In this document: piece by piece, positions 759-30,147 of the stretch | Position numbering within the stretch: position 1 is the first letter of the stretch | Layout of the letters: each line of letters starts with the position of its first letter | IMG/VR virus record: IMGVR_UViG_3300037258_001209 | Coordinates: 1-32,339 of that record | Reading direction: 5' to 3' (one strand) | DNA from: a virus | DNA: 32,339 nt | Program-made: the position numbers and the translations under genes | The notes under the pieces: model-generated | What the model saw: only the letters and a program-made list of their open reading frames with translations | What the model was told of the DNA's origin: nothing | Databases searched by the model: none

Positions 759-1712
759 ATGCCCAGCAACATGGCGGAGGACACATCGGAACCCGACGGC
801 GGCTGCGCGTTCATCGTCGCGGACACCGCTCCCGAGGCCGGCGAACCGCGCGTCTGCAACGCCGCTCGGCGGCCCGGCTCGGCCTATTGTCCGCAACATC
901 ATGCGCGCTGCCGCCTGCCAGCGGGCAGCGCCGGCGAGCGCCGCCAATTGCGCGAGATCGAGGCGCTCGCCGAGGCGGTCGGCGGCCGCCAGGGACGCCC
1001 CGCCCGCTCGCCGCCGCCCGCGCTGCTGCGCCGCCTCGCGCGGCTGGAACGCAGGCTTTTTTTGCGCCATGGTTGTTCACGTATTGTTCGGATGGAGGAT
1101 GCGATGGCGAACCGCAAAGCCGGCCCGGCCGCGACGGAGGCGGCGCCCCCGGCGGATGACGCGGGGCCGACCCCGGAACGCCGCCAGCACGGACCGGTCG
1201 AGCGGGTCGAGCGGGCGATCGCCGATGCGGCGGGTCACCCGGCGCGCCCCTACCGCGCGCTCGACACCCTGCAGGTCATGGAGCGGCGCGGCTCGATCAC
1301 CGCCGGCATGCGGCAGGCGGGCGAGGATTTCCGAACCCGCTTCGCGGTCGCCCAACTCGACCCGCTGCGCGCGATCGACCTGACGCGGCCGCGTTTCGAC
1401 GGCGAGAGCGGGCGCTCCGACCGCGAGGCGCCGGGCCTGCGCATCGAGGCGGCGCGGCGCGCCGTGTGGCGGGCGATCCAGGCGGCCGGCGGCATCGCGT
1501 CGCCGGCGGGGTCGTGTCTGTGGCATGTGCTCGGCTGGCAGCGCACATTGAAGGAATGGGCGGCGGAGCAGGGCTGGGCCGGGCGGCGGGTCAGCCAGGA
1601 AGCCGCCTCCGGCATCCTCGTTGCCGCGCTGGGCGCGCTGGAAACGCATTTCCAAATGCCGGTTCGCGTATCGCCATCGCATTTTTCTATTGACAAATCC
1701 GGATCGATCTGA
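759..1712 (+). CDS. Regulator with GcrA-like Cys/His motif and DUF6456-like domain
   Basis: This 317-aa protein is the first rightward gene opposite the repressor and is probably a transcriptional regulator. The N-terminal part (about 10-55) carries a Cys/His pattern with V-C-N-A-A ... G-S-A-Y-C-P-Q-H-H. It resembles the C-terminal motif of the alphaproteobacterial cell-cycle regulator GcrA. The C-terminal half (about 165-305) has the pattern R-A-L-D-T-L, I-T-A-G-M-R-Q-A-G-E-D-F-R and D-P-L-R-A, which I associate with the DUF6456 family. The two parts are joined by a Pro/Ala-rich linker around residues 110-160. An internal ATG at about 1104 could start the second domain alone, so this may be a fusion of two genes. 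The stop codon lies inside the target duplication of the downstream IS, which leaves the protein intact. Family names are from memory; the function is inferred. Confidence 0.7.
   Translation: MPSNMAEDTSEPDGGCAFIVADTAPEAGEPRVCNAARRPGSAYCPQHHARCRLPAGSAGERRQLREIEALAEAVGGRQGRPARSPPPALLRRLARLERRLFLRHGCSRIVRMEDAMANRKAGPAATEAAPPADDAGPTPERRQHGPVERVERAIADAAGHPARPYRALDTLQVMERRGSITAGMRQAGEDFRTRFAVAQLDPLRAIDLTRPRFDGESGRSDREAPGLRIEAARRAVWRAIQAAGGIASPAGSCLWHVLGWQRTLKEWAAEQGWAGRRVSQEAASGILVAALGALETHFQMPVRVSPSHFSIDKSGSI
1690..1712 (+). promoter_or_regulatory. -35 box and spacer of late promoter cut by the IS
   Basis: TTGACA at 1690-1695 is followed by exactly 17 bases (1696-1712), after which the IS begins. 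The base that originally came next is now at 3793, where TATAAG is found. The unbroken site would therefore be TTGACA-N17-TATAAG, a near-consensus sigma-70 promoter for the terminase operon. The last eight spacer bases (CGATCTGA) are the duplicated target. Confidence 0.65.
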
Positions 1713-1738
1713 GGGAATTATATACTTTACTCCCTCGC
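1713..1738 (+). repeat. Left terminal inverted repeat of the IS1595 element
   Basis: The repeat begins GGGAATTATATAC and ends TCCCTCGC; its reverse complement matches 3759-3784 with four mismatches. The first base follows directly on the target duplication CGATCTGA. Confidence 0.9.
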
Positions 1739-1754
1739 CGGACCCGGCTATAAT
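1726..1754 (+). promoter_or_regulatory. Candidate transposase promoter, -35 in the left IR
   Basis: TTTACT (1726-1731, inside the inverted repeat), a 17-bp spacer and a perfect TATAAT (1749-1754) lie 25 bases before the transposase ATG at 1780. This is the expected position for the element's own promoter. Confidence 0.5.
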
Positions 1755-1779
1755 CGGCGCACTTTCGAGGGGTTAGCCG

Positions 1780-2715
1780 ATGAGCCGCAGCACGATTTCG
1801 ACCTTCCAGCTTTTCGAGATGTTTCCCGATCAGGAAACTGCGCGGACCTATCTGGAAAGCCGGTTGTGGCCGAACGGCGTCCGCTGTCCGCACTGCGGTT
1901 CGGGTGAGCGCATTACGACGCGCAAGAACGGCTTCTACCGCTGCAATGCCTGCGCCAGCACGACCGGCAAGGGTGACTTCACGGTGCGCACGGGAACCAT
2001 CTTCGAGCGCTCGCACGTGCCGCTGCACAAGTGGATTTACGCGATGTACCTCGTCGTCACCGCACGCAAGGGCATCTCGTCGATGCAGCTCGCCAAGGAA
2101 ATCGGCGTCACGCAGAAGACCGCGTGGTTCGTTCTCGGCCGGCTGCGCGAGGCGTGCGGCGACAAACTTGAAAAGTTGCGCGGCATCGTCGAAATCGACG
2201 AGGCATACATCGGCGGCCGAGAGGGCAACAAGCACGCCAACAAGCGCAACTCGAAGGCCAGCGGCCCGGTCGGCAAGGCGGCAGTTCTTGGGATGCGGGA
2301 ACGCGGCGGCCGCACCAAGGGAGTGCGGATTGCCAATACAGACGGCGCGACGCTCGAATTCGCGATCCTCGATAATGTTGAGCGGGGTGCAGTCATCAAC
2401 ACTGATGAATGACGCGGCTATGCCAGCCTGCATCATATCGGCTACGGCCACATGACGGTAAACCACAAGGCCGGCGAGTACGTCGGCAACGACGGCGCAT
2501 CGACGAACGCCATCGAAAGCGTGTGGGCGGTCTTGAAGCGCGGCATCTATGGCACTTATCATCATGTTAGCGAAAAGCATCTGGCGCGGTATGTTGACGA
2601 AGCGGCCTTCCGGCTCAACGAGGGCAACGTCGCGCGGCACACGCTGCGGCGGCTGGAAAGCTTTGTTGACGGCACGGCCGGGAAGCGGCTGACATATAAG
2701 GGGTTGATCGGATGA
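1780..2715 (+). pseudogene. IS1595-family transposase, interrupted by one in-frame TGA
   Basis: The N-terminus has a zinc ribbon (C-P-H-C ... Y-R-C-N-A-C, residues about 35-65), followed by an ISXO2-like DDE domain with I-V-E-I-D-E-A-Y-I-G-G (first Asp) and V-I-N-T-D-E (second Asp). Translation stops at TGA 2410-2412. The same frame continues without any further change through R-G-Y-A-S-L-H-H-I-G-Y-G-H, V-N-H-K-A-G-E-Y-V, N-A-I-E-S-V-W and L-K-R-G-I-Y-G-T-Y-H-H to a natural stop at 2715. Family members usually have Trp after T-D-E, so TGG to TGA is the simplest explanation. The 210-aa product lacks the third catalytic acidic residue (Glu of N-A-I-E-S) and should be inactive. An ATG at 2452 could start a C-terminal fragment. 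Confidence 0.9.
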
Positions 2716-2861
2716 GTACCCTGCCGGCGAAACCTCCGGAAATTCTCGATAAGATCGTAGATATGGTTTTGGCGTACAAGCCGAAGGCGAAGATGAAGGC
2801 GAAGGTTGCGAAAACGCGGAAGAAACGCGCCAATAAAAAGACTTCTCGTGCTCATTCATGA
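2712..2861 (+). CDS. Small basic protein of the IS element
   Basis: This is a 49-aa ORF that starts inside the transposase stop codon (ATGA overlap at 2712-2715) and ends in another ATGA overlap with the membrane-protein gene. The first half (M-S-T-L-P-A-K-P-P-E-I-L-D-K-I-V) could form a short helix. The second half is strongly basic, a run of Lys/Arg/Ala, and could bind nucleic acid. Tight coupling on both sides supports translation. I do not recognise a named family; a role as an accessory protein of this IS group is an inference from position. Confidence 0.55.
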   Translation: MSTLPAKPPEILDKIVDMVLAYKPKAKMKAKVAKTRKKRANKKTSRAHS

Positions 2862-3736
2862 GCAATGATCCCAATAATGGGAGCAAAAATCCCAATAACA
2901 ACCACGATAAATATAAGAATCTTTATCATTGTGTGTACGTCGCCGGCTACATCATTGTTACCGCGCCGATAGAATTTGTATTTTTGTGGCCCGACACCCA
3001 TTTAGGCGCACTCCTTGGTATGGCTGCTCTTCTTAGCCTGCCGACCATTTATGAGATGACCGTCTGGGGATTTCGTCCCATCACAACAACAGCAACCGTA
3101 ATTATTTGGTTTGTCGCCGCTGGAATGACTTTTTGGACAATCGGCCCTATCCCCCTTTCCGAAAGCGAAGCGCATGGGTGGCTGCTGCCGGCAAATGATC
3201 CGACGCCATCTTTGTACTGTACCCGCAAACAAATACCGGCGGCCGCTATCGTATTTCTTCTTGGCACAAATAGCATCGCTACTCTTGATACGACAATTGA
3301 TATTCTGAAAGTCGGGCAATGTCACGCCGTCTGGATGCGCCGTGTCGGCCCTGGCATATTTATTAATGCCGATCTTTTCGCTCCTAATGGCGATTTGATG
3401 GTACGAATACGAGATAACGAATTTCACCTCGTATCCGGTGAATATTCGTACCGCGATAGGAGCGATGACCGCAGCACAATAGCCGTATATGACAAAAAAG
3501 GAAACGAAGCGTTTTACACACGTTTCATCAATCCCAGAACGGTAGTGATACGAGGCGTGTTCTCTTGTGGAAGCACTCGTGTTCAACTTATTATTAAGAA
3601 CGACAATATATTTGAAACGCAGCGAGACAATACCCTTAAAGACAATTGTATCGGCGGCATGCCGGCCGGCATTTGGGCCGATGACCGCGGCGTAGTCTAT
3701 TTGGGCGCGTGGCCACCTAGCCGCCGCAAGAAATGA
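2858..3736 (+). CDS. Passenger membrane protein of the IS1595 element
   Basis: This 292-aa hypothetical protein is carried inside the IS. After an Asn/Asp-rich N-terminus there are hydrophobic segments around residues 27-45, 48-65 and 75-95, with another weaker one near 125-140. A soluble C-terminal domain of about 140 residues follows, with alternating beta-type patterns (F-H-L-V-S-G-E-Y-S-Y; R-T-V-V-I-R-G-V-F). The start ATG overlaps the stop of the 49-aa ORF (ATGA). Base composition is clearly more AT-rich than in the phage genes, with frequent ATA, AAT and TTT codons, which indicates a different recent origin. Only 22 bases separate its stop from the right inverted repeat. No enzyme motif was recognised; the function is unknown. 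Confidence 0.75.
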   Translation: MSNDPNNGSKNPNNNHDKYKNLYHCVYVAGYIIVTAPIEFVFLWPDTHLGALLGMAALLSLPTIYEMTVWGFRPITTTATVIIWFVAAGMTFWTIGPIPLSESEAHGWLLPANDPTPSLYCTRKQIPAAAIVFLLGTNSIATLDTTIDILKVGQCHAVWMRRVGPGIFINADLFAPNGDLMVRIRDNEFHLVSGEYSYRDRSDDRSTIAVYDKKGNEAFYTRFINPRTVVIRGVFSCGSTRVQLIIKNDNIFETQRDNTLKDNCIGGMPAGIWADDRGVVYLGAWPPSRRKK

Positions 3737-3752
3737 CACGATTTCCCTTGCG

Positions 3753-3780
3753 TTCATAGCGAGGGACTCATGTATATAAA
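3753..3780 (+). promoter_or_regulatory. Candidate outward promoter from the IS right end
   Basis: TTCATA (3753-3758), a 16-bp spacer and TATAAA (3775-3780) lie at the right end of the IS and read outwards towards the terminase genes. The match is only fair. If active it could partly replace the phage promoter that the IS has split. Confidence 0.3.
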
Positions 3781-3784
3781 TCCC
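3759..3784 (-). repeat. Right terminal inverted repeat of the IS1595 element
   Basis: Its reverse complement begins GGGATTTATATAC and ends TCCCTCGC, pairing with 1713-1738. The second copy of the target duplication (CGATCTGA, 3785-3792) follows immediately. Confidence 0.9.
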
Positions 3785-3792
3785 CGATCTGA

Positions 3793-3798
3793 TATAAG
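3793..3798 (+). promoter_or_regulatory. Orphaned -10 box of the late promoter
   Basis: TATAAG directly follows the right copy of the target duplication. Its original partner TTGACA is now 2.1 kb upstream at 1690-1695. The sequence now 17 bases upstream (ATGTAT, from the IS) is a poor -35 box. The terminase small subunit starts 30 bases downstream. Confidence 0.6.
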
Positions 3799-3828
3799 AA
3801 CCGCACACTGGACAAATCGGGCGAGGCG

Positions 3829-4308
3829 ATGCCGCCAGCAAGCGGGCGCGAGATTGCCGCGCCAATAGCCGAAGAGGTCGAGGCGCGCGCGGCGCGCCTC
3901 GGCATCACCGCCGAGCGGGTGCTCGAAGAATACGCCCGCATCGCGTTTGCCAACATCCATCACGTTGTCGAGTGGGACACGGACGGCATGCGGGTGAAGC
4001 CGTCCGCCGACCTGCCGGACGACGCGCGCGCGGCGATCGCCGAGATCGTCGCCTCGGCGAAAACCGGCGCGATCTACCGCGTCAAACTGCACGACAAAAA
4101 GCCGGTGCTCGATGCGCTGGCCCGCCATCTCGGCCTGCTGCCGCCGCAGAGACACGCCCCGGATGAGGACGACGAACGGCTGGACGACAGCGACGATCCT
4201 CGCGAATTCCTTATTCGCGAACTCGATCGCCTGGAGCGGGAGGAGGCTGCACCAGCAGCTTCTGACCCTCAGCCGGGAGCGGCTGCAACCGCTCGTCCAC
4301 CGCTATAA
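3829..4308 (+). CDS. Terminase small subunit
   Basis: This 159-aa protein lies directly before the large terminase. Residues about 10-60 are helical (E-E-V-E-A-R-A-A-R-L-G-I-T-A-E-R-V-L-E-E-Y) and continue into a segment ending K-L-H-D-K-K-P-V-L-D-A-L-A-R-H-L-G-L. That pattern is typical of the Terminase_2 small-subunit family: an N-terminal DNA-binding helical domain followed by an oligomerisation segment. The C-terminal 50 residues are acidic, then Ala/Pro-rich, and overlap the large-subunit gene. The role is recognition of phage DNA and loading of the motor. The start at 3829 has a purine-rich GGGCGAGG stretch upstream. Expression should depend on the promoter at 1690/3793, now interrupted by the IS. 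Confidence 0.8.
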   Translation: MPPASGREIAAPIAEEVEARAARLGITAERVLEEYARIAFANIHHVVEWDTDGMRVKPSADLPDDARAAIAEIVASAKTGAIYRVKLHDKKPVLDALARHLGLLPPQRHAPDEDDERLDDSDDPREFLIRELDRLEREEAAPAASDPQPGAAATARPPL

Positions 4309-5641
4309 AGCGCAGCGCTTTTGGCGGCCGCGCCCGGCGCAGCGGCCGCCCAAGGGCGACTGGCGGGTTTGGCTGCTGCTCGCCGGCCGCGGCTTTGGCA
4401 AGACCCGCGCCGGCGCCGAATTCGTGCGGCACGAGATCGCCGAAGGGCGGGCGCGACGGGTGGCGCTGATCGGCCCGACCGCGCTCGACGTGCGCAACGT
4501 CATGGTCGAGGGCAGCAGCGGCCTGCTCAATATCGGGCCGCGCCGCAAGCGGCCCGTCTACGAGCCGTCGAAGCACCGCCTGACCTGGCGGAACGGCGCC
4601 GTCGCCGAGACCTTTTCGGCCGACGAGCCGGACCGGTTGCGCGGGCCGCAGCACGATCTCGCATGGTGCGACGAACTCGCCGCCTGGCGCTATCCGGCGG
4701 CGTGGGACATGCTGCTGCTCGGCCTGCGCCTCGGGCGTGACCCGCGCGTCGTCGTGACGACGACGCCGCGGCCGATCCGGCTGGTCCGCGCCCTCCTTGC
4801 CGACCCCAAGGTCGCGGTCACCCGCGGTCGCACGATCGAGAACCGCGCCAATCTGGCGCCGGCCTTCCTGGAGCAGATCGTCAGGCGCTACGAGGGCACC
4901 CGCCTCGGGCGCCAGGAACTCGACGCCGAGCTGCTCGACGACGTGCCGGGCGCCTTGTGGACGCACGCGCTGATCGACGCCGTCCGCCTCGCCGCCGCGC
5001 CCGCCGACCTCGTGCGCATCGTCGTCGCGATCGACCCGGCCGTCTCCTCGGGCGAGGCGGCGGACGAGACCGGCATCGTCATTGCCGGCCGCGACGCCGA
5101 AGGGCACGGCTACGTGTTGGCCGACGCCTCGGGACGCCTCGCGCCGCTCGAATGGGCCCAGGCCGCGGCCGCCGCGTATCGGGCGCAGCATGCCGACCGC
5201 ATCGTCGCGGAAGTGAACAACGGCGGCGACCTCGTCGAGGCGACGCTGCGCGTCGTCGACCCGGCGATCGCGTTCCGTGCCGTGCGCGCCTCGCGCGGCA
5301 AGGCGGCGCGCGCCGAGCCGGTCGCCGCGCTCTATGAACAGGGCCGCATCCACCATGTCGGCGCCTTCCCGGCGCTGGAAGACCAGATGTGCGCGTTTGC
5401 GCCCGGGGCCCACGGCGATTTCGACCGCGCCCGCCAGGGCTGGTCGCCCGACCGGGTCGATGCGCTGGTGTGGGCCCTGACCGACCTGTTTATCGACCCG
5501 CCGGCCGGCGAGGGGATTTTGGACCTCTATCGCCAGGCCGCCAGCAACCCCCCGCCCTCGTCCTCCCCGCACGCTGCGCCGCCCCTCCCCGGCGTGCGGC
5601 GGAGCGGGGGCGGGGGCCCCCAGCACCGTGAGGACCGATGA
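4112..5641 (+). CDS. Terminase large subunit (packaging ATPase/nuclease)
   Basis: This is the DNA-packaging motor. Numbered from 4112, the ATPase domain has Walker A A-G-R-G-F-G-K-T (91-98), Walker B L-A-W-C-D-E (183-188) and a coupling motif V-V-T-T-T-P-R-P (214-221). The nuclease domain has an RNase H-like core starting A-I-D-P-A (306-310), with later acidic residues in W-S-P-D-R-V-D-A-L. The true start is unclear. The first 50-60 residues do not look like a terminase and overlap the small-subunit gene by almost 200 bases. A strong Shine-Dalgarno GGGAGGAGG at 4238-4246 precedes possible CTG starts (4247, 4262), but no ATG, GTG or TTG follows in frame before the conserved region. The last about 35 residues are Pro/Ser/Gly-rich low complexity. 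The stop overlaps the next ATG (ATGA). Confidence 0.92.
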   Translation: MRWPAISACCRRRDTPRMRTTNGWTTATILANSLFANSIAWSGRRLHQQLLTLSRERLQPLVHRYKAQRFWRPRPAQRPPKGDWRVWLLLAGRGFGKTRAGAEFVRHEIAEGRARRVALIGPTALDVRNVMVEGSSGLLNIGPRRKRPVYEPSKHRLTWRNGAVAETFSADEPDRLRGPQHDLAWCDELAAWRYPAAWDMLLLGLRLGRDPRVVVTTTPRPIRLVRALLADPKVAVTRGRTIENRANLAPAFLEQIVRRYEGTRLGRQELDAELLDDVPGALWTHALIDAVRLAAAPADLVRIVVAIDPAVSSGEAADETGIVIAGRDAEGHGYVLADASGRLAPLEWAQAAAAAYRAQHADRIVAEVNNGGDLVEATLRVVDPAIAFRAVRASRGKAARAEPVAALYEQGRIHHVGAFPALEDQMCAFAPGAHGDFDRARQGWSPDRVDALVWALTDLFIDPPAGEGILDLYRQAASNPPPSSSPHAAPPLPGVRRSGGGGPQHREDR

Positions 5642-6222: not shown

Positions 6223-9146
6223 GGACATGCTGGGTACTCGCCCGCGCCATCGCGACGAGCCTGTTTGTTCTCGCGTTGACGGCACCTGCCAACGCCCAAT
6301 CATCCGGGAATTTCTCGACATTGACGGCGAGCGGCACGGCGACGCTGAACGGCGATGTCGTCATGTGTTCGGGGCACCCGTGGATCGACGTGCGGTGTCC
6401 GAGCATGGCGGGCGGCGCGGTCGGCGACGGCAGCCACGACGACACCGCGGCGATCCGGGCGACCTTTGCCGCCGCCGCGGCGAACGGCTGGCCGGTGCAT
6501 CTTCCGGCCGGCACCTACAAGGTGACGGGCCTCTTGACGATCGACTACGCCGGGACCGCCTCGACCGGGTTCCGGCTGATTTCCGAGGGCGCCGTCATCG
6601 ACGGCCGCACGATCCCCTCGGGGCCGGTGTTGCAGGTCATGTGCTCCGGCGGCAGCATTCCGTCGCCGGCCTCCTGCTTTTATTTCCGCGAACAGGGCAC
6701 CCTCAGCCTCTGGGGCAATTCCGGGGGGCAGAACCTCGCGAGCCTAACCGCCGCCGCCACTGCCGGCGACACCGTGCTGGCGGTGTCCACGGCGGCGCCG
6801 TTTTTTGCCGGCGAGACGGTGCTGGTTGCATTGTCGGGCGGTGGCACGTTTGCGTCGCCGATCGCGTCGGTCGGCGGCAGTTCGATCACGTTGCAGAACG
6901 CTCTGCCCTCCGGCGCCGCGAACAACGCCGCGGTGTCGATCACGTCCTATCCGTTCGTGTTCGGCACCAATAATTTCGCCGACGCGCACAATTCGGCAAA
7001 GATCGACCACCTGCTGGTGAACAACGCCAGCACCGCCGCCGGCGCCGGCGGCTGCCAGTTCAATTACGTGCTCGACAGCGACATCTTCGCGGTATGCGTC
7101 AGCGCCGGCGGCGCCGCCGGCCTGGCGCTGGAGCAGGTGCAGTTTTCGCGCCTTGCCGGCGCCGGCACCGCCGAGGGCACCGGCGGTGCCGGCCTCGTCC
7201 TGGAGAACGGCTACAACATCTCCAACCTGTTTTCGGCATTCGATCTCGAAGTGTCGCCGACCTGCCTCGCAATCACCGACCGGCACGACGGCATGAACAG
7301 CTGGGTCAGCCCCTATTTCAACTGCAACACCGCGGTCAGCGCCACCGGCAGCACCCATAACGTGCTGATCAACCCGACCTATGGTGGCAATGTCGTCAAC
7401 CGCGGGCCGCAGTCGCAGGGCGTGCAAATCATCGGCACTGGCAACCGCGTGCCGTGGCAGTATCCGGCATCCGCCACCTACGTCGCCAGCGGCATCGACA
7501 GCGGCACGACGCTGTCGAGCGCCGAGGCCGCCGGCGCCTCGCTCGCCGTGACCCTGCCCAACCCGGACAGCATCGACGATGGCTGGTGGATGGGGTTTGC
7601 CAGCGACAACAACAAGGGCCTGAGCTTGACCGCACCCTCCGGCACCTCGATCCTCGCAGGCGGCCATGGCGCACCGTCGCTCACCCTCGGCCCCGGCAAT
7701 TACGAGTATGTGAAGCTACAGTCGGACGGGCAGAATTTCCGGGTGGTCGGCGCGAGCCGCAACACCCGCCTCTACGGCGGCGTCGAGGCGGCGGCTTTTC
7801 CGGGCAACGCCTGGCTGTTTCCGTCCACGACCGGCTATGCCGCGACGCTCGGCGACAACGGCAACGTGTTGTCGAGCTTCAATGCGACGGGCGGGCTGAC
7901 CGTCACCCTGCCGAGCACGACCGGGTTGTCGGCCGGCTGGGCGATCGGCCTCGCCGCCGACAACGGCAACGGCCTGAGCGTCAACGTCAACGGCACCGCC
8001 GGCGGCAATATCGTCTATCCGCGCACGCTGGCGGCCCCTCAGACCTCGCTGACGCTGGCCGGGCACAATTACGAATTCGTCGCGCTGCAGTACGACGGCA
8101 ACGGCAGTTTCCGCGTCGTCAACGCGACGCCGGCGACGGCACAGCAGATCGGCATGGCCGGCCCCGGCGGCATCGCCAACTGGCTGTTCCCGGCGACCGC
8201 CGCCTACACCGCGACCAAAGCCGACAACGGCAACGCGATCTCGGCGTTCAATTCGCCGCAGAGTTATTTCGCGCTGACCCTGCCGGCGACCAGTACGATC
8301 GCCGCCGGCTGGACCATCGCGGTCGCCAGCGACAACGGCAAGGCGACATCGGTGCAGGTCAACGGCGGTGCGGGGGAGAAGATCCTGGTGCCCGGCACGC
8401 TCGGCGCCCAGACCGCGCTGACGCTGGCGAGCAACACCAGCGGCTACGAACTGGTCGTGCTGCAATTCGACGGGTCGAATTTCCGGATGGTGTCGGCGAC
8501 GCCGCTGACCGCCAACGCCTCCGGCATGGCGACGCTGATCGGCACCCCCGCCTCGCTCACCGCGCCATGCCAGACCGGCGCGTTCGAGACCGACGGCGTC
8601 TACCTCTATCTCTGCACCGCGCCGAGCACCTGGAAAGAGGTCCCGGTCGGCACCTTCGCGATCGACACCTGGAGCTTTCCCGCGGTCACCAGTTATGCCG
8701 CGACGGCGAGCGACGGCGGCAAGGCTATCTCCTCCTTCAACGCGCCGGGCGTCGGCATGGGGATCACGCTGCCGCCGACCGACACGATCGCCGCCGGCTG
8801 GACGATCGGCGTCGCCACCGACGCCGGCAAGACGATGACGGTCGCGGTGCAGGGCGGGCACGGCGAGAAGATTCTGGTGCCCGGCACCGCGGGCGCGCTG
8901 ACCTCGCTGCCGCTGCCGACCAACACCGCCGGGTACGAACTGGTCGTGCTGCAATTCGACGGGGCGAATTTCCGCGTGCTGTCGGCGACGCCGCTGACCG
9001 CCAACGCCTCCGGCATGGCCACCCTGATCGGGACCCCAGCCGACACCGGCGCCTGCAATACCGGCGCCATCGAAACCGACGGCGCCTACCTCTACGTCTG
9101 CGCCGCCCCCAACACCTGGAAACGCGCCGCCCTGTCGAGCTACTGA
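6216..9146 (+). CDS. Beta-helix tail-spike-like protein with signal peptide and C-terminal repeats
   Basis: This is a probable receptor-binding or carbohydrate-active spike. From the ATG at 6216 the protein begins with a typical Sec signal peptide (hydrophobic A-T-S-L-F-V-L-A-L-T, cleavage after A-N-A). The pectate-lyase-superfamily opening motif G-A-V-G-D-G-S-H-D-D-T-A-A-I follows, then a long Gly/Ala/Asn-rich stretch typical of right-handed parallel beta-helices. From 7455 there are four repeats of about 120-160 residues, each beginning W-x-[YF]-P and containing G-W and N-[YF]-E or G-Y-E-L-V-V-L-Q. The last two also contain N-A-S-G-M-A-T-L-I-G-T-P-A and E-T-D-G-x-Y-L-Y-x-C. I prefer 6216 because the upstream open frame (from a GTG at 6072) translates the palindromic repeat. 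The length is about 976 aa. A signal peptide is unusual for a virion protein; this could be a secreted host-modifying protein. Confidence 0.75.
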   Translation: MTGTCWVLARAIATSLFVLALTAPANAQSSGNFSTLTASGTATLNGDVVMCSGHPWIDVRCPSMAGGAVGDGSHDDTAAIRATFAAAAANGWPVHLPAGTYKVTGLLTIDYAGTASTGFRLISEGAVIDGRTIPSGPVLQVMCSGGSIPSPASCFYFREQGTLSLWGNSGGQNLASLTAAATAGDTVLAVSTAAPFFAGETVLVALSGGGTFASPIASVGGSSITLQNALPSGAANNAAVSITSYPFVFGTNNFADAHNSAKIDHLLVNNASTAAGAGGCQFNYVLDSDIFAVCVSAGGAAGLALEQVQFSRLAGAGTAEGTGGAGLVLENGYNISNLFSAFDLEVSPTCLAITDRHDGMNSWVSPYFNCNTAVSATGSTHNVLINPTYGGNVVNRGPQSQGVQIIGTGNRVPWQYPASATYVASGIDSGTTLSSAEAAGASLAVTLPNPDSIDDGWWMGFASDNNKGLSLTAPSGTSILAGGHGAPSLTLGPGNYEYVKLQSDGQNFRVVGASRNTRLYGGVEAAAFPGNAWLFPSTTGYAATLGDNGNVLSSFNATGGLTVTLPSTTGLSAGWAIGLAADNGNGLSVNVNGTAGGNIVYPRTLAAPQTSLTLAGHNYEFVALQYDGNGSFRVVNATPATAQQIGMAGPGGIANWLFPATAAYTATKADNGNAISAFNSPQSYFALTLPATSTIAAGWTIAVASDNGKATSVQVNGGAGEKILVPGTLGAQTALTLASNTSGYELVVLQFDGSNFRMVSATPLTANASGMATLIGTPASLTAPCQTGAFETDGVYLYLCTAPSTWKEVPVGTFAIDTWSFPAVTSYAATASDGGKAISSFNAPGVGMGITLPPTDTIAAGWTIGVATDAGKTMTVAVQGGHGEKILVPGTAGALTSLPLPTNTAGYELVVLQFDGANFRVLSATPLTANASGMATLIGTPADTGACNTGAIETDGAYLYVCAAPNTWKRAALSSY
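7455..9143 (+). repeat. Four tandem repeats in the spike C-terminus
   Basis: Units start at the Trp codons at 7455, 7812, 8181 and 8670 (357, 369, 489 and about 474 bases). Units 3 and 4 are the most alike, sharing E-K-I-L-V-P-G-T, G-Y-E-L-V-V-L-Q-F-D-G and a terminal T-W-K. Units 1 and 2 lack the last about 40-residue Cys-containing subdomain. This points to internal duplication, the most recent event producing units 3 and 4. Confidence 0.75.
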
Positions 9147-9292: not shown

Positions 9293-10867
9293 ATGCCACC
9301 TTCCGGCGGCAGGCGCACGCCTTTGACCCCGTCCTACACCTGGGGGCAGCAGGGGCTGGAGGCGCAGTTCCGCGACGTGTACCAGCCGGGCCAGGGCATC
9401 TTCTCGCCGGGCTATCCGCTGGCGCCGCCCGAGCCCGAGCGCACCCGAATCTGGGACTTTCCGGTCGGCGTCAACACGATCTACACGCCGCGCGCCTACG
9501 AGCCGATTTCGTTCGCCGAGTTGCGCGCCTTGGCCGAGGCGCACGATTTGACGCGGCTCGCGATCGAAACCCGCAAGGACCAGCTCGAAAGCCTCGAATG
9601 GACGATCCGGCCGGCCTCGGCTAAGGGCGCGTCGGGCGACTGGCAGCTTCGCGCCGCGCAGGTCGCGCAGTTCTGGCGGCGTCCCGATGGCGAGCTGCCG
9701 TTTGCCACCTGGCTGCGCGACCTCGTCGAGGACCTGCTGGTCATCGACGCCTCGGCGCTGGAAATCCGCCGCAACCGCGGCGGCGACGTGATCGGCCTCG
9801 ATGTCGTCGACGGCGCGACGATAAAGCTCCTGGTCGACGACACCGGCCGCCGGCCGCGCCCGCCGGCGCCGGCTTATGAGCAGGTCATTCACGGCCGCCC
9901 GTGGAAATTGCTGACCAGTGACGAATTGCTCTACCGCCCGCGCAACAAGCGGCCGCACAAGGCCTATGGCTTCTCGCCGGTCGAGCAGATCGTCATGACG
10001 ATCAACATCGCGATCCGCCGCCAGACGATGCAATTGCAGCATTTCACCGACGGCAATGTGCCGCCCGGCCTCTTGAATGCGCCGGACGGCTGGAATGCCG
10101 AGCAGATAAGGCAGTTCCAGGAGTGGTTCGACAGCGTGCTCGCCGGCAACACCGGCGGCCGCACGCGTCTCTTGTGGGGGCCCGCCGGCACCCGCTACCA
10201 GCCGTTCAAGGAGGCGCCCTACAAGGACGAATTCGACGAGTGGCTGGCGCGCCTCGTGTGTTACGCGTTCAGTCTGCCGCCGACCCCGTTCATCCGCCAG
10301 ATGAACCGCGCCACCGCCGACACCGCGCAGCAGGCGGCGCTGGCGGAAGGTTTGGCGCCGCTGATGGGCTGGGTCAAGCGCCTGTGCGACCACGTGATCC
10401 AGGATCGCCTGGGCCACCCCGACCTCGAATTCGCCTGGGCCGAGACCCGCGCCCCCGACCCCGCCCTTCAGGCCAAAACGCTGCAGACCTATGTCGCCGC
10501 CGGCATCTACACGGTGGACGAAGCCCGCGCTCAACTTGGCCTCGACCCGGTGCCCGGCAGGGCCGCGCCGCCGGTCGCCAAAGCCAACTTCAACCCCGCC
10601 GGGCCGCGCCTCCCCGCCAGCAACCCCGGCGGCGGCCAATGGACCGGCGACGGTGGTGATAGTAGCTTCGATGTCGCCGCCAGCGGCAACATTCCTTGCC
10701 AGGGCGGCTATTGCGAAAGCGGCGGAACATATGGTACCGCGGCAATGTATCACATTCTCGGCAGGAATCTTTGCAGAGACTGCGCGATCAAAACGATGGG
10801 CCTCGAAGGCCTGCCGGGGTCGGTGCAGACGAAGGAATTGGAGCGGTACCTTATAAATGGCAGATGA
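9293..10867 (+). CDS. Portal protein with Cys-rich C-terminal extension
   Basis: This is the dodecameric head portal through which DNA passes. The first about 420 residues follow the HK97/SPP1-type portal pattern, with R-L-A-I-E-T-R-K-D-Q-L-E-S-L-E-W near 85-100, then L-Y-R-P-R-N and Y-G-F-S-P-V-E-Q-I, a Q-F-T-D-G-N-V-P-P-G-like strand, and F-S-L-P-P-T-P-F-I-R-Q-M-N-R-A-T-A-D-T near 340. After L-G-L-D-P-V-P-G comes a linker P-A-S-N-P-G-G-G-Q-W-T (10613-10645) and a tail of about 73 residues with C-x4-C and C-x2-C pairs, a likely zinc site. That tail is not part of a normal portal. The start at 9293 has AAAGGA upstream. The 3' half (9869-10550) is duplicated at 11780-12461 with a different tail. 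The gene ends close to the start of the small gene that follows. Confidence 0.9.
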   Translation: MPPSGGRRTPLTPSYTWGQQGLEAQFRDVYQPGQGIFSPGYPLAPPEPERTRIWDFPVGVNTIYTPRAYEPISFAELRALAEAHDLTRLAIETRKDQLESLEWTIRPASAKGASGDWQLRAAQVAQFWRRPDGELPFATWLRDLVEDLLVIDASALEIRRNRGGDVIGLDVVDGATIKLLVDDTGRRPRPPAPAYEQVIHGRPWKLLTSDELLYRPRNKRPHKAYGFSPVEQIVMTINIAIRRQTMQLQHFTDGNVPPGLLNAPDGWNAEQIRQFQEWFDSVLAGNTGGRTRLLWGPAGTRYQPFKEAPYKDEFDEWLARLVCYAFSLPPTPFIRQMNRATADTAQQAALAEGLAPLMGWVKRLCDHVIQDRLGHPDLEFAWAETRAPDPALQAKTLQTYVAAGIYTVDEARAQLGLDPVPGRAAPPVAKANFNPAGPRLPASNPGGGQWTGDGGDSSFDVAASGNIPCQGGYCESGGTYGTAAMYHILGRNLCRDCAIKTMGLEGLPGSVQTKELERYLINGR

Positions 10868-11764: not shown

Positions 11765-13048
11765 CCTACGCCACCCGAGCCGGCCTATGAGCAGGTCATC
11801 CACGGCCGCCCGTGGAAATTGCTGACCAGTGACGAATTGCTCTACCGCCCGCGCAACAAGCGGCCGCACAAGGCCTATGGCTTCTCGCCGGTCGAGCAGA
11901 TCGTCATGACGATCAACATCGCGATCCGCCGCCAGACGATGCAATTGCAGCATTTCACCGACGGCAACGTGCCGCCGGGTCTGCTAAACGCGCCGGACGG
12001 CTGGAACGCAGAGCAGATAAGGCAGTTCCAGGAGTGGTTCGACAGCGTCCTTGCCGGCAACACCGGCGGCCGCACAAAGCTGCTGTGGGGGCCTTCCGGC
12101 ACAAGCTACCAGCCGTTCAAGGAAGCGCCCTACAAGGACGAATTCGACGAGTGGCTGGCGCGCATCGTGTGCTACGCGTTCAGTCTGCCGCCGACCCCGT
12201 TCATCCGCCAGATGAACCGCGCCACCGCCGACACCGCGCAGCAGGCGGCGCTGGCGGAAGGTTTGGCGCCGCTGATGGGCTGGGTGAAGCGCCTCGCCGA
12301 CGAGGTGATCCAGGACCGCCTCGGCCACCCCGACCTCGAATTCGCCTGGGTCGAGGAGCGTCCGGCCGACCCCGCGGAACAGGCAAAGGTGCTTGAAACC
12401 TACGTCACCACCGGCATCTACACACTCAACGAAGCCCGCGCCATCCTCGGCCTCGACCCGATTCCCGGCGGCAAACCAACTCCGGCCGCATCGGCACCAG
12501 CGCAACTCCTGCCGGGAGATCGCGGCGCCGGCATCGCGAGGCTTGCCGCCGCGGCGCTGAGGAAATACTACCCCGACGAGCCGCGCGTCCCGGCCGGCAA
12601 CCCCGAGGGCGGCGAATGAACCGGCGGCGGCGGCGGCGAGGGCGAGTTTGGCGTAGCGTCACAAGACATTGATCGCGCGCAGATAATCGCGCTGTGTAAA
12701 GAAGAGTGTATCGCCATCTTTGCCGGCGACCGCGCTGGGGCCTCCCGGGTGTCGGACCCGACACTTTCGGGCGAATCCGCAGATGCATTCGCGAATGCTG
12801 CGAGCGTCACGGCCGCTATGATTATTAGGTGGATAATGGAAAAATCGTCGGCAGCGGAGCTGATCAAATCATTGATGGAGCTCTCCGATCGGCTGAATGA
12901 TATCGACGCGCAGCTGCGACGCCTTCCAGACGACGTTGAACGGAAGGCGCTACTGAGAACACTCGGATCGGTTATGCTCGATTTGGATGCTGGGTTGATC
13001 CGCCCGATCGTCCGACAGCATCCGGAGCTCGATCCGGACCAGCCATGA
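11765..13048 (+). pseudogene. Orphan portal 3' cassette with alternative C-terminal tail
   Basis: This is a second copy of the portal 3' half with no start codon, ribosome site or N-terminal half; the frame opens after a TGA at 11762. From 11780 it matches the portal copy at 9869 (constant offset 1911). By my count there are 19 differences in about 226 residues, none in the first about 100 and 13 in the last about 40. After L-G-L-D-P-I-P-G the linker is longer (contains Y-Y-P-D-E-P-R-V-P-A-G-N-P-E-G-G-E), and TGA at 12617-12619 replaces the Trp of the Q-W-T motif. The same frame then stays open for 142 codons to 13048, giving a tail unrelated to the first: Cys-containing, then mainly helical (L-I-K-S-L-M-E-L-S-D-R-L-N-D-I-D). 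The layout looks like a silent alternative cassette, not random decay. Confidence 0.8.
11780..12461 (+). repeat. Direct repeat of portal segment 9869-10550
   Basis: About 680 bases are repeated in direct orientation 1911 bases apart. The DNA is almost identical over roughly 9902-10047 versus 11813-11958 and diverges towards the 3' end. Recombination between the copies would exchange or delete the portal tail and the genes between. Confidence 0.85.
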
Positions 13049-14946: not shown

Positions 14947-15029
14947 GTAGGATGGGTTGAGCGGAGCGATACCCATCGCCCGCGGTCCTCGGTTTAACGA
15001 TGGGTTTCGCTTCGCTCAACCCATCCTAC
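14947..15029. repeat. Long inverted repeat in the protease-capsid gap
   Basis: The arms, 14947-14978 and 14998-15029, are 32 bases each and pair at 30 of 32 positions, with a 19-base loop. They carry the motif GTAGGATGGGTTGAGCG, a type of dispersed palindrome I know from many proteobacterial genomes. A second, outer pair surrounds it: GCAAAGGACGCGA near 14890 and its complement near 15086. The 314-base gap 14853-15166 therefore holds nested palindromes, the terminator at 15119 and no supported gene. An open frame running from 14957 into the capsid gene merely translates this repeat. Confidence 0.85.
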
Positions 15030-19410: not shown

Positions 19411-19695
19411 CTAATGCCCGACGTTCGCGGGACCGCGGTTCCTTAGGCCAATGCCGATCGAATTACCGCCGAGGCCTGCACTCGCACCGCCAATCCGGCG
19501 GCGCGGCGTGAGGGTGACGACAAACATCGATCTCCCGGTGTACCGGCCCGGAAACGGCCGGGCATCACCCATGGAAATCGGCTCGACGGTGCCTTCGCCC
19601 GTATTTCTGATGCCAAAGAGGAATGAGCTCCCTGTGACGCCACCGGGTACGGTGCCGCCTATGGTAGGGGCTTCGGAGGTTCGGTCTGATGCCAC
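19411..19695 (-). CDS. Uncertain small protein downstream of the SDH proteinase gene
   Basis: This is an open frame of 94 residues from a GTG at 19695, overlapping the end of the proteinase gene by 37 bases on the same strand. Codon choice (many GGC, ACC, GTC, CGG) looks more like coding sequence than the overlapping plus-strand frame. The protein is Gly-rich with F-V-V-T-L-T-P-R-R-R. There is no clear ribosome site and no recognised family. It may be a second cargo gene or chance. Confidence 0.3.
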   Translation of the reverse strand: MASDRTSEAPTIGGTVPGGVTGSSFLFGIRNTGEGTVEPISMGDARPFPGRYTGRSMFVVTLTPRRRIGGASAGLGGNSIGIGLRNRGPANVGH

Positions 19696-20786
19696 TGCTG
19701 ATCCAATGGATGGGCATTAACCGAATGCTGACCCTGAGGATCGGCGATCAAAATATACCGTATCCTCTGATCTAGACGAGAGGAGAGGCGATGACTTTCG
19801 ATGATGCTCCAAATCACGCTCTCGTCTAAGCGCGCCAGCTCGGTAAATTGTCCAGGAATAAAGGCGTTTGGTTCGACGTTGCCGGCAAGTTTATTGATGG
19901 GGTCATAATTTTCTTTGAATTTCATCTCTGTTTCAAAATCAACATAGAGATCCCAAATTCCCGTCTCAACTTCTGCTGGAACATGCTCCAGCACTTTTAA
20001 TCCAAGTTCTTGACGGGCTTCGACGCGGTTTATCGGATGTCCGTGAAAATATAGTTTTGAAGCTAGTGCCTCGATAATCGAATCAAGCTTATGCCGTTCA
20101 TCCTCGGCGGTATGGAGGCTAAGAAGTTTTCGCGCAATCATACGTGACTGAGAGATAAATCTCTCAACGTTTCCCAGCGCAAGCGGATGGATTTTGTTTG
20201 CAAGAATCTCCATCGTTCTTACCAGCTCCTCTTCGTGATTTATACCGACCGTATCCTTGATAAAAGATACATAAGCCTTTACGTCTTCAACGCTAATGCC
20301 AATTCGTCGATTGCTTCCCGTCTCCACCGGATTGAATTCATTTGTTACCGTTGGATCGATCGGTCCCATCACCCCGAATTTATGCATAACAATTTCATCG
20401 GCGCCTAGAGCCATGAGAGTCGCTGCACTATAAGCCCGGAAGGGAATTAAGACGCTGAAACTCTTCGCGTACTCGCGAAATATGGGTACTAAACGCCAAG
20501 GCAAGACACTGTCACCGCCGTTGCTGACAAGGAATAGATCGAGTTTTTCAACCGGCTGCTGAGGTAGGCGTTGGAGGTGATCGATAAATTCCCGGATGGA
20601 GTCATCACCCATGAGGCCTACCGCACCCGGCCGTAACGATGTGAGGTAACATATCAATTTTGAGCCGCGGAGGGTTTCTATTTTGTCGATTAGCGCGCGG
20701 CGCGTTTCTAAACTCATGTCTGGAACCGGTCGGTTGCGTTTTGCTCGTTCCTGCGCCCATCGGAGACCTTCGTCAAGCGATTTCAC
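19659..20786 (-). CDS. SDH-type (ClpP-fold) serine proteinase, antisense cargo
   Basis: This 375-aa protein has the hallmarks of the serine dehydrogenase proteinase family (ClpP/crotonase fold). An oxyanion loop L-V-S-N-G-G-D-S-V (about 86-94) is followed by L-P-W-R-L-V-P-I-F-R-E-Y. The nucleophile motif F-R-A-Y-S-A-A-T-L-M-A-L-G-A (Ser 120) is followed by D-E-I-V-M-H-K-F-G-V-M-G-P-I-D-P. No transmembrane segment is obvious, whereas several relatives are membrane-anchored. The gene starts with GTG, is much less GC-rich than the tail genes and runs against them, between chaperone and tape measure. It is a moron: expressed separately and not needed for virions. A role in host fitness or in defence against other phages is possible, but nothing in the sequence proves it. 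Confidence 0.8.
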   Translation of the reverse strand: MKSLDEGLRWAQERAKRNRPVPDMSLETRRALIDKIETLRGSKLICYLTSLRPGAVGLMGDDSIREFIDHLQRLPQQPVEKLDLFLVSNGGDSVLPWRLVPIFREYAKSFSVLIPFRAYSAATLMALGADEIVMHKFGVMGPIDPTVTNEFNPVETGSNRRIGISVEDVKAYVSFIKDTVGINHEEELVRTMEILANKIHPLALGNVERFISQSRMIARKLLSLHTAEDERHKLDSIIEALASKLYFHGHPINRVEARQELGLKVLEHVPAEVETGIWDLYVDFETEMKFKENYDPINKLAGNVEPNAFIPGQFTELARLDESVIWSIIESHRLSSRLDQRIRYILIADPQGQHSVNAHPLDQQWHQTEPPKPLP

Positions 20787-30087: not shown

Positions 30088-30147
30088 GGCGGACTGCGTC
30101 CGCCCTACCACGCGACCAAGTCCTTCGTAGGGCGGACGCAGTCCGCC
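30088..30147. repeat. Perfect 21-bp inverted repeat
   Basis: The arms 30088-30108 and 30127-30147 are perfectly complementary, with an 18-base loop; the core motif is GGACTGCGTCCGCCC. It lies in the gap after the hub C-terminal gene. It is a host-type dispersed palindrome, without the T-run of an intrinsic terminator. Confidence 0.9.

Follow-up and report, generated by a model that had tools for sequence, protein, structure and literature searches.

What becomes of a phage late promoter when a mobile element comes to lie between its two hexamers? This question is raised by a 32-kb virus record (IMG/VR record IMGVR_UViG_3300037258_001209; the window, meaning the whole stretch of 32,339 nucleotides analysed here), in which an IS1595-family insertion sequence (IS) entered a temperate phage's late promoter by transposition, with an 8-bp target duplication. 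Taken as a whole, the locus is best explained if the IS split a conserved late promoter of the GafZ type and regulated late transcription was lost, an account that we regard as fairly probable. The site is composed as listed below, where conservation refers to relatives whose promoters were gathered with a fuzzy 25-base seed, so that conservation inside the seed is inflated.

759–1712, + strand: open reading frame (ORF) of the late regulator; its TGA stop forms the last three spacer bases, and relatives are 41–83% identical.
1092–1712, + strand: regulator part with DUF6456 (GafZ/GafA-C-like), which many relatives encode as an ORF of its own.
1690–1695, + strand: −35 hexamer TTGACA, each position 98–100% conserved.
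1705–1712, + strand: left copy of the target duplication, CGATCTGA, which is the 3' end of the spacer; a direct repeat, with the empty site in relatives L013 and L145.
1713–3784, + strand: IS1595-family element of 2,072 bp with 26-bp imperfect terminal inverted repeats.
3785–3792, + strand: target duplication, right copy, whose TGA restores the extended −10 TGnTATAAG, the TG being 88–96% conserved in relatives.
3793–3798, + strand: −10 hexamer TATAAG, with TA 100% and AA 80–88% conserved.

Read directly from the window, TTGACA at 1690–1695 is followed by the 17-base spacer AATCCGGATCGATCTGA at 1696–1712, and the 2,072 bp of the IS (1713–3784) separate this TTGACA-N17 (1690–1712) from TATAAG (3793–3798). 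The 8-bp direct repeat CGATCTGA flanks the element at 1705–1712 and 3785–3792. The earlier note had placed the IS exactly between the spacer and the −10 box, which is correct to the base. When the IS and one duplication are removed, the joined sequence, split in the actual window, presents sigma-70 hexamers with an 11/12 match at 17-bp spacing, and it contains no other promoter-like site of at least 10/12.

The regulator protein as query yielded 42 viral contigs, and the alignment as query yielded 13 contigs of alphaproteobacterial and proteobacterial metagenome-assembled genomes (MAGs). The closest relatives, the viral contig L013 and the MAG contig L145 (83% and 86% identical over the DUF6456 region, respectively), read TTGACAAATCCGGATCGATCTGATATAAGATGCGCACACTGGACAAA, without the insertion and without a second CGATCTGA. 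The joined sequence TTGACAAATCCGGATCGATCTGATATAAG is present exactly in both of these empty sites, in agreement with the earlier prediction that deleting the IS and one duplication would give TTGACA-N17-TATAAG. The counter-case named with that prediction, relatives that lack TATAAG at the junction, did not turn up, as the junction reads TATAAG or TAYAA. Moreover, a version of the joined promoter lies between the same regulator and the terminase in ~50 distinct phages and prophages. No second comparable insertion was seen among the relatives, TA directly following the spacer in 50 of the 50 non-redundant promoters. Further points of the earlier note hold as well: the regulator stop codon TGA is kept inside the duplication, no phage gene was broken (the main late ORFs are open), and the label 'late promoter' is well supported by a position directly upstream of the terminase and structural genes in ~50 lineages.

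Comparison of the relatives' sequences shows that the promoter forms one conserved unit, in which TTGACA is joined by the box AATCCGGATcGAtcTG, an extended −10 and, downstream, a CACACTG...GGG element. In the ~50 lineages, this unit directly follows the gene of the DUF6456 regulator and precedes the terminase operon. The consensus of the 50 non-redundant promoters reads aTtgc...gcATTTt...aTTGACAAATCCGGATcGATcTGnTAnAA, then AcacTG and GG, and 33 of the 34 columns with at least 80% conservation agree with the joined sequence of the window. Three further elements of the window belong to the unit:

1679–1684, + strand: GCATTT box upstream of the −35, with ATTT 84–92% conserved in the 50 promoters.
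1696–1704, + strand: spacer box AATCCGGAT, containing the palindrome ATCCGGAT; probable regulator-loading site.
3804–3822, + strand: initial-transcribed element CACACTGGACAAATCGGGC, with A 100%, TG 94–96% and GG 86–88% conserved outside the seed.

Columns outside the seed are conserved too (ATTT upstream; A, TG and GG downstream). For a seed-free test, 80 loci were fetched by the regulator protein alone, and a TTGAC close to where the regulator domain ends served as the anchor. TTGAC was found at most 60 nt from the domain end in 49 of these 80 loci, and the spacer box was matched at 7 or more of its 9 positions in 46 of 48 distinct loci unselected for the box. In 36 loci the whole promoter is situated downstream of the stop codon, and 35 of these keep the box; the single boxless locus was anchored on another TTGAC, with the true promoter adjoining. 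Coding constraint as the cause of spacer conservation is ruled out by these 35 promoters outside the coding region. Because the spacer is conserved nearly as well as the hexamers, even outside the regulator gene, it is probably a protein-binding site; the promoter stretch with the spacer, a putative target of the DUF6456 protein, reads AATCCGGATCGATCTG. Neither this conservation of the spacer nor the relation of the regulator to GafZ/GafA of gene transfer agents was mentioned in the earlier note. The TG before the −10 makes this an extended −10, and in the window's subgroup the regulator stop TGA provides that TG plus the A. Outside the spacer, AATCCGGATYGA occurs 4 times in 1.83 Mb of fetched loci, always 44–45 nt downstream of TTGACA and in one subgroup. 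In loci L008, L009, L146 and L155, a second copy of the spacer box is located ~44 nt after TTGACA, in the initial transcribed region and immediately ahead of the following gene.

GafA homologs carry the annotation DUF6456 (PMC9638019). The domain was matched by all 20 aligned members of the regulator group (best E=9.5e-12), and Caulobacter gave the sole DUF6456 match among 14 control genomes. Pfam detected no DnaA-like domain in the regulator ORF, and its N-terminal part has no convincing family match. GafY relatives were not found, neither as a DnaA-like partner nor as a fused N-terminal domain. The DUF6456 part matched no PHROGs family at E<=1, and this phage branch of DUF6456 appears to be undescribed in PHROGs. 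In the literature searched, with incomplete coverage, DUF6456 proteins are nowhere described as late regulators of phages. The cultured Acidithiobacillus phage AcaML1 carries a DUF6456 gene that is 41% identical, with its stop codon inside TTGACA. In this Mu-like phage (L281), the gene, at 4881–5480, is annotated merely as 'hypothetical protein Gp20'.

The insertion moved the −35 and AATCCGGAT ~2.1 kb from the −10 and the start site. On its left side, the IS leaves TTGACA and the box untouched, with no −10 at a usable distance. To the right, TGA-TATAAG is intact (3790–3798), and the best IS-derived −35 matches 3/6; a hybrid −35 supplied by the IS end was considered and rejected as weak. Such an arrangement would remove normal, regulator-dependent late transcription and leave no more than a weak promoter with an extended −10, together with read-through of transcripts from the IS or the regulator. 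Most probably, regulated late transcription at a high level has been lost and a low level persists, as residual activity or read-through. The prophage is probably impaired in particle production, though not through a damaged phage gene. The earlier note expected late transcription to be switched off or rewired; it may have been lowered or rewired rather than abolished. A plain 'off' is less certain because the extended −10 is retained and the IS brings a good promoter of its own in the same direction:

1726–1754, + strand: IS promoter TTTACT-N17-TATAAT, a 10/12 match, pointing in the same direction as the late operon.

The open state of the main late ORFs also sits uneasily with lost late transcription; a dead promoter would imply that the event is recent or tolerated. 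These observations bring up the main rival, full rewiring, in which the late operon is on via the IS promoter through the passenger gene of the element, via the retained extended −10, or by read-through from the regulator promoter, and has escaped its normal control. The same-direction IS promoter has no convincing terminator towards the operon, the inverted repeat of the IS holds TATAAA with a 4/6 −35, and both the intact TGA-TATAAG and the open late ORFs would fit. However, the native −10 gets only that 3/6 −35 from the IS, and there are ~2 kb to cross, with hairpins inside the IS that are terminator-like only in a weak form. Furthermore, it is general knowledge that in temperate phages unregulated late expression would harm the lysogen. 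We therefore consider full rewiring unlikely, if still a serious contender.

Loss of regulated transcription raises the question of how the intact promoter is controlled. In Caulobacter, GafZ, a homolog of the GafA C-terminal part, requires a palindromic element between the −35 and −10 of the promoter of the gene transfer agent (GTA), and acts as an antiterminator with which RNA polymerase passes terminators, like lambda Q (PMC11150451). The conserved box described here is at the same position, between −35 and −10. By analogy, the regulator, as a GafZ relative, would bind the spacer box and be loaded there onto RNA polymerase, and the loaded protein would start or extend late transcription as Caulobacter GafZ or lambda Q does. 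Both the binding and the antitermination are what we infer from the characterised systems, the latter by reasoning rather than as a result. Some relatives have a layout that would suit antitermination. Locus L125 contains one copy of the promoter ahead of the terS region and another between terS and terL, with a strong intrinsic terminator 42–47 nt after each −10, and L088 has a similar promoter-then-terminator layout. In AcaML1, the palindrome GTGGTACCAC comes after TTGACA, then a hexamer that resembles a −10 but is imperfectly spaced, and then a GC-rich hairpin. The promoter-plus-terminator unit of L125, at positions 137 and 2446, looks as if it were a movable cassette.

Several results weigh against this mechanism. 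Terminators are not enriched after the promoter across the clade (6/51 versus 54/422 control stretches); they stand just after it only in L125 (two copies), L088, L037, L023 and L031, and the window has none between the −10 and the terminase. A Foldseek search with the predicted regulator structures returned no significant match to a known antiterminator. The DUF6456 score of the window regulator (PF20057, E=3.7e-5, 24.3 bits) is just below the Pfam cut-off of 26.3. Finally, the −35 of Caulobacter is degenerate and GafY is needed there, whereas the −35 here is perfect and no GafY relative was found. As to structural likeness to Q, the weak Q21 matches of a first model (E=3–6) were absent with a better-supported second model and were not used.

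Alternatively, an ordinary activator or repressor, for example the phage repressor or the DUF6456 protein as a simple spacer-binding regulator, could use the spacer box as its operator, with no antiterminator loaded there. The palindrome ATCCGGAT is operator-like, the near-consensus hexamers suggest a promoter that needs holding down, and the lack of terminator enrichment would be expected. Yet, the characterised member of the family loads between −35 and −10 and antiterminates (PMC11150451), the promoter-then-terminator layout does occur in L125, L088 and AcaML1, and the fetched loci do not have the box away from this promoter. On balance, an ordinary operator seems improbable to us, although by no means far-fetched. 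There is also a broader proposal, which we would judge slightly more apt to fail than to hold: DUF6456 proteins may be widespread, unrecognised phage late regulators, loaded at a spacer site as Q-like antiterminators, and the phage ancestors of GafZ control of GTAs. The prophage would then be a natural knock-out, in which a transposon pulled the loading site off the start site.

The inserted element itself is well defined. Its terminal inverted repeats are identical at 22 of 26 bp, and it contains two ORFs:

1780–2715, + strand: IS1595 transposase, with Pfam matches on both halves and a TGA interrupting it at 2410–2412.
2858–3736, + strand: passenger ORF of 292 aa, AT-rich and apparently membrane-associated.

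The transposase halves match DDE_Tnp_IS1595 (PF12762) and Zn_ribbon_IS1595 (PF12760). At the in-frame TGA (2410–2412), related readable transposases have a sense codon and none has a stop; the earlier note does not mention this TGA. Because of this interruption, this copy is probably unable to move by itself. The domains, the 8-bp duplication and the inverted repeats of the IS1595 family are all present, whereas the transposase frame is not intact; an intact transposase is unnecessary for the membership of a single copy, and this copy descends from the IS1595 family. The length of the duplication agrees with published IS1595-family elements (ISApl4, PMC12561309). Related IS were found in the L148 genome (77% identical over the first 660 bases) and, complete, in L244 (2,159 bp) and L245 (1,977 bp), where they have their own 8-bp duplications, AAAAGTTC and TTTTATCC, respectively. 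L244 and L245 also have AT-richer passenger genes in their elements, a different one in each, that encode membrane-type proteins. No relatives of the window's passenger protein were detected, either in 43 genomes or in viral contigs.

These comparisons also bear on whether the window could be an assembly artefact, with a repeated IS misjoined into the contig. It is a metagenomic viral contig considered here without reads, but the duplication is perfect, its site is uninterrupted and single in relatives, and the ends of the IS agree with those of independent copies from other alphaproteobacterial genomes, down to the same first base, which makes a misjoin very improbable. Least probable of all, to the point of being negligible, is that the joined hexamers are a chance match and no promoter, as their overlap with the end of the regulator coding sequence might suggest: ~50 lineages conserve the promoter, 36 of them outside the coding region, and first-order Markov shuffles predict 0.03 sites at 11/12 or better.

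The following genes lie around the unit:

1–732, − strand: phage repressor (helix-turn-helix plus S24 peptidase; Pfam PF00717, PF13560), divergent from the regulator.
3829–4308, + strand: terminase small subunit (PF03592, E=2e-12), the first gene of the late operon.
4112–5641, + strand: terminase large subunit (PF03237, PF17289), given as the longest ORF; the true start is probably further in.

Elsewhere in the window, part of the portal gene is duplicated (9860–10558 and 11771–12469; 699 bp, 90% identical). In the second copy, the N-terminus is missing and a PAGNP-GG linker leads into a different C-terminal end, which resembles a spare C-terminal cassette. A gene for a ClpP-like SDH-type serine proteinase (19659–20786, − strand) lies on the opposite strand inside the tail operon. 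Long near-perfect palindromes occur between late genes (14947–15029 and 30088–30147), and a tail-fibre-like gene (7811–9122) has internal repeats that are 68–81% identical. The host was deduced from MAGs bearing related prophages. Closely related prophages reside in MAGs that bear the label Alphaproteobacteria, except for one Acetobacteraceae and one Proteobacteria label, and L148, one of the prophage-bearing genomes, also holds a related IS. From this we infer that the phage infects uncultured Alphaproteobacteria, presumably soil bacteria judging from the sample names.

Insertion of an IS between a −35 and its −10 is a known kind of event. Here, the insertion draws attention to a conserved late-control unit that ~50 lineages of phages and prophages from uncultured Alphaproteobacteria, presumably of soil, have in common, and offers a natural mutant of it. 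With a defined regulator, a 9-bp spacer box and a start element, the unit makes the GafZ mechanism testable outside GTAs. It ties ordinary phages to the GafZ control of GTAs and suggests an origin of that control.

Compared to ISApl4 and the IS1595 family, the element in the window is alike in transposase domains, 8-bp duplications and inverted repeats, and differs in its length of ~2 kb, its passenger membrane-protein gene and the internal stop in the transposase. With the lambda pR'/Q and AlpA systems, the late-control unit has a common layout, a regulator gene upstream of the late promoter and a loading site in the spacer (here putative), and, in some relatives, a terminator directly behind the start, although lambda Q and AlpA have no sequence similarity or significant fold match to the window regulator. 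In the GafA/RcGTA promoter of Rhodobacter capsulatus, a C-terminal DUF6456 domain binds near the −10/−35 of the late promoter (PMC9638019). Comparable binding is likely here, but the N-terminal part of our regulator is Cys/His-rich instead of DnaA-like, and is often a separate ORF in relatives. The PgtaT promoter of Caulobacter crescentus with GafY/GafZ (Tran and Le 2024, PMC11150451) differs in its spacer box (GCGCCCG-CTGGCGC, versus AATCCGGATcGA here) and in its −35, whereas our unit belongs to a phage, has a perfect −35 and the regulator gene directly upstream of the promoter, and lacks a recognisable GafY. Nevertheless, both share a DUF6456-type regulator, a conserved element between −35 and −10, and the control of an operon for terminase and structural proteins.

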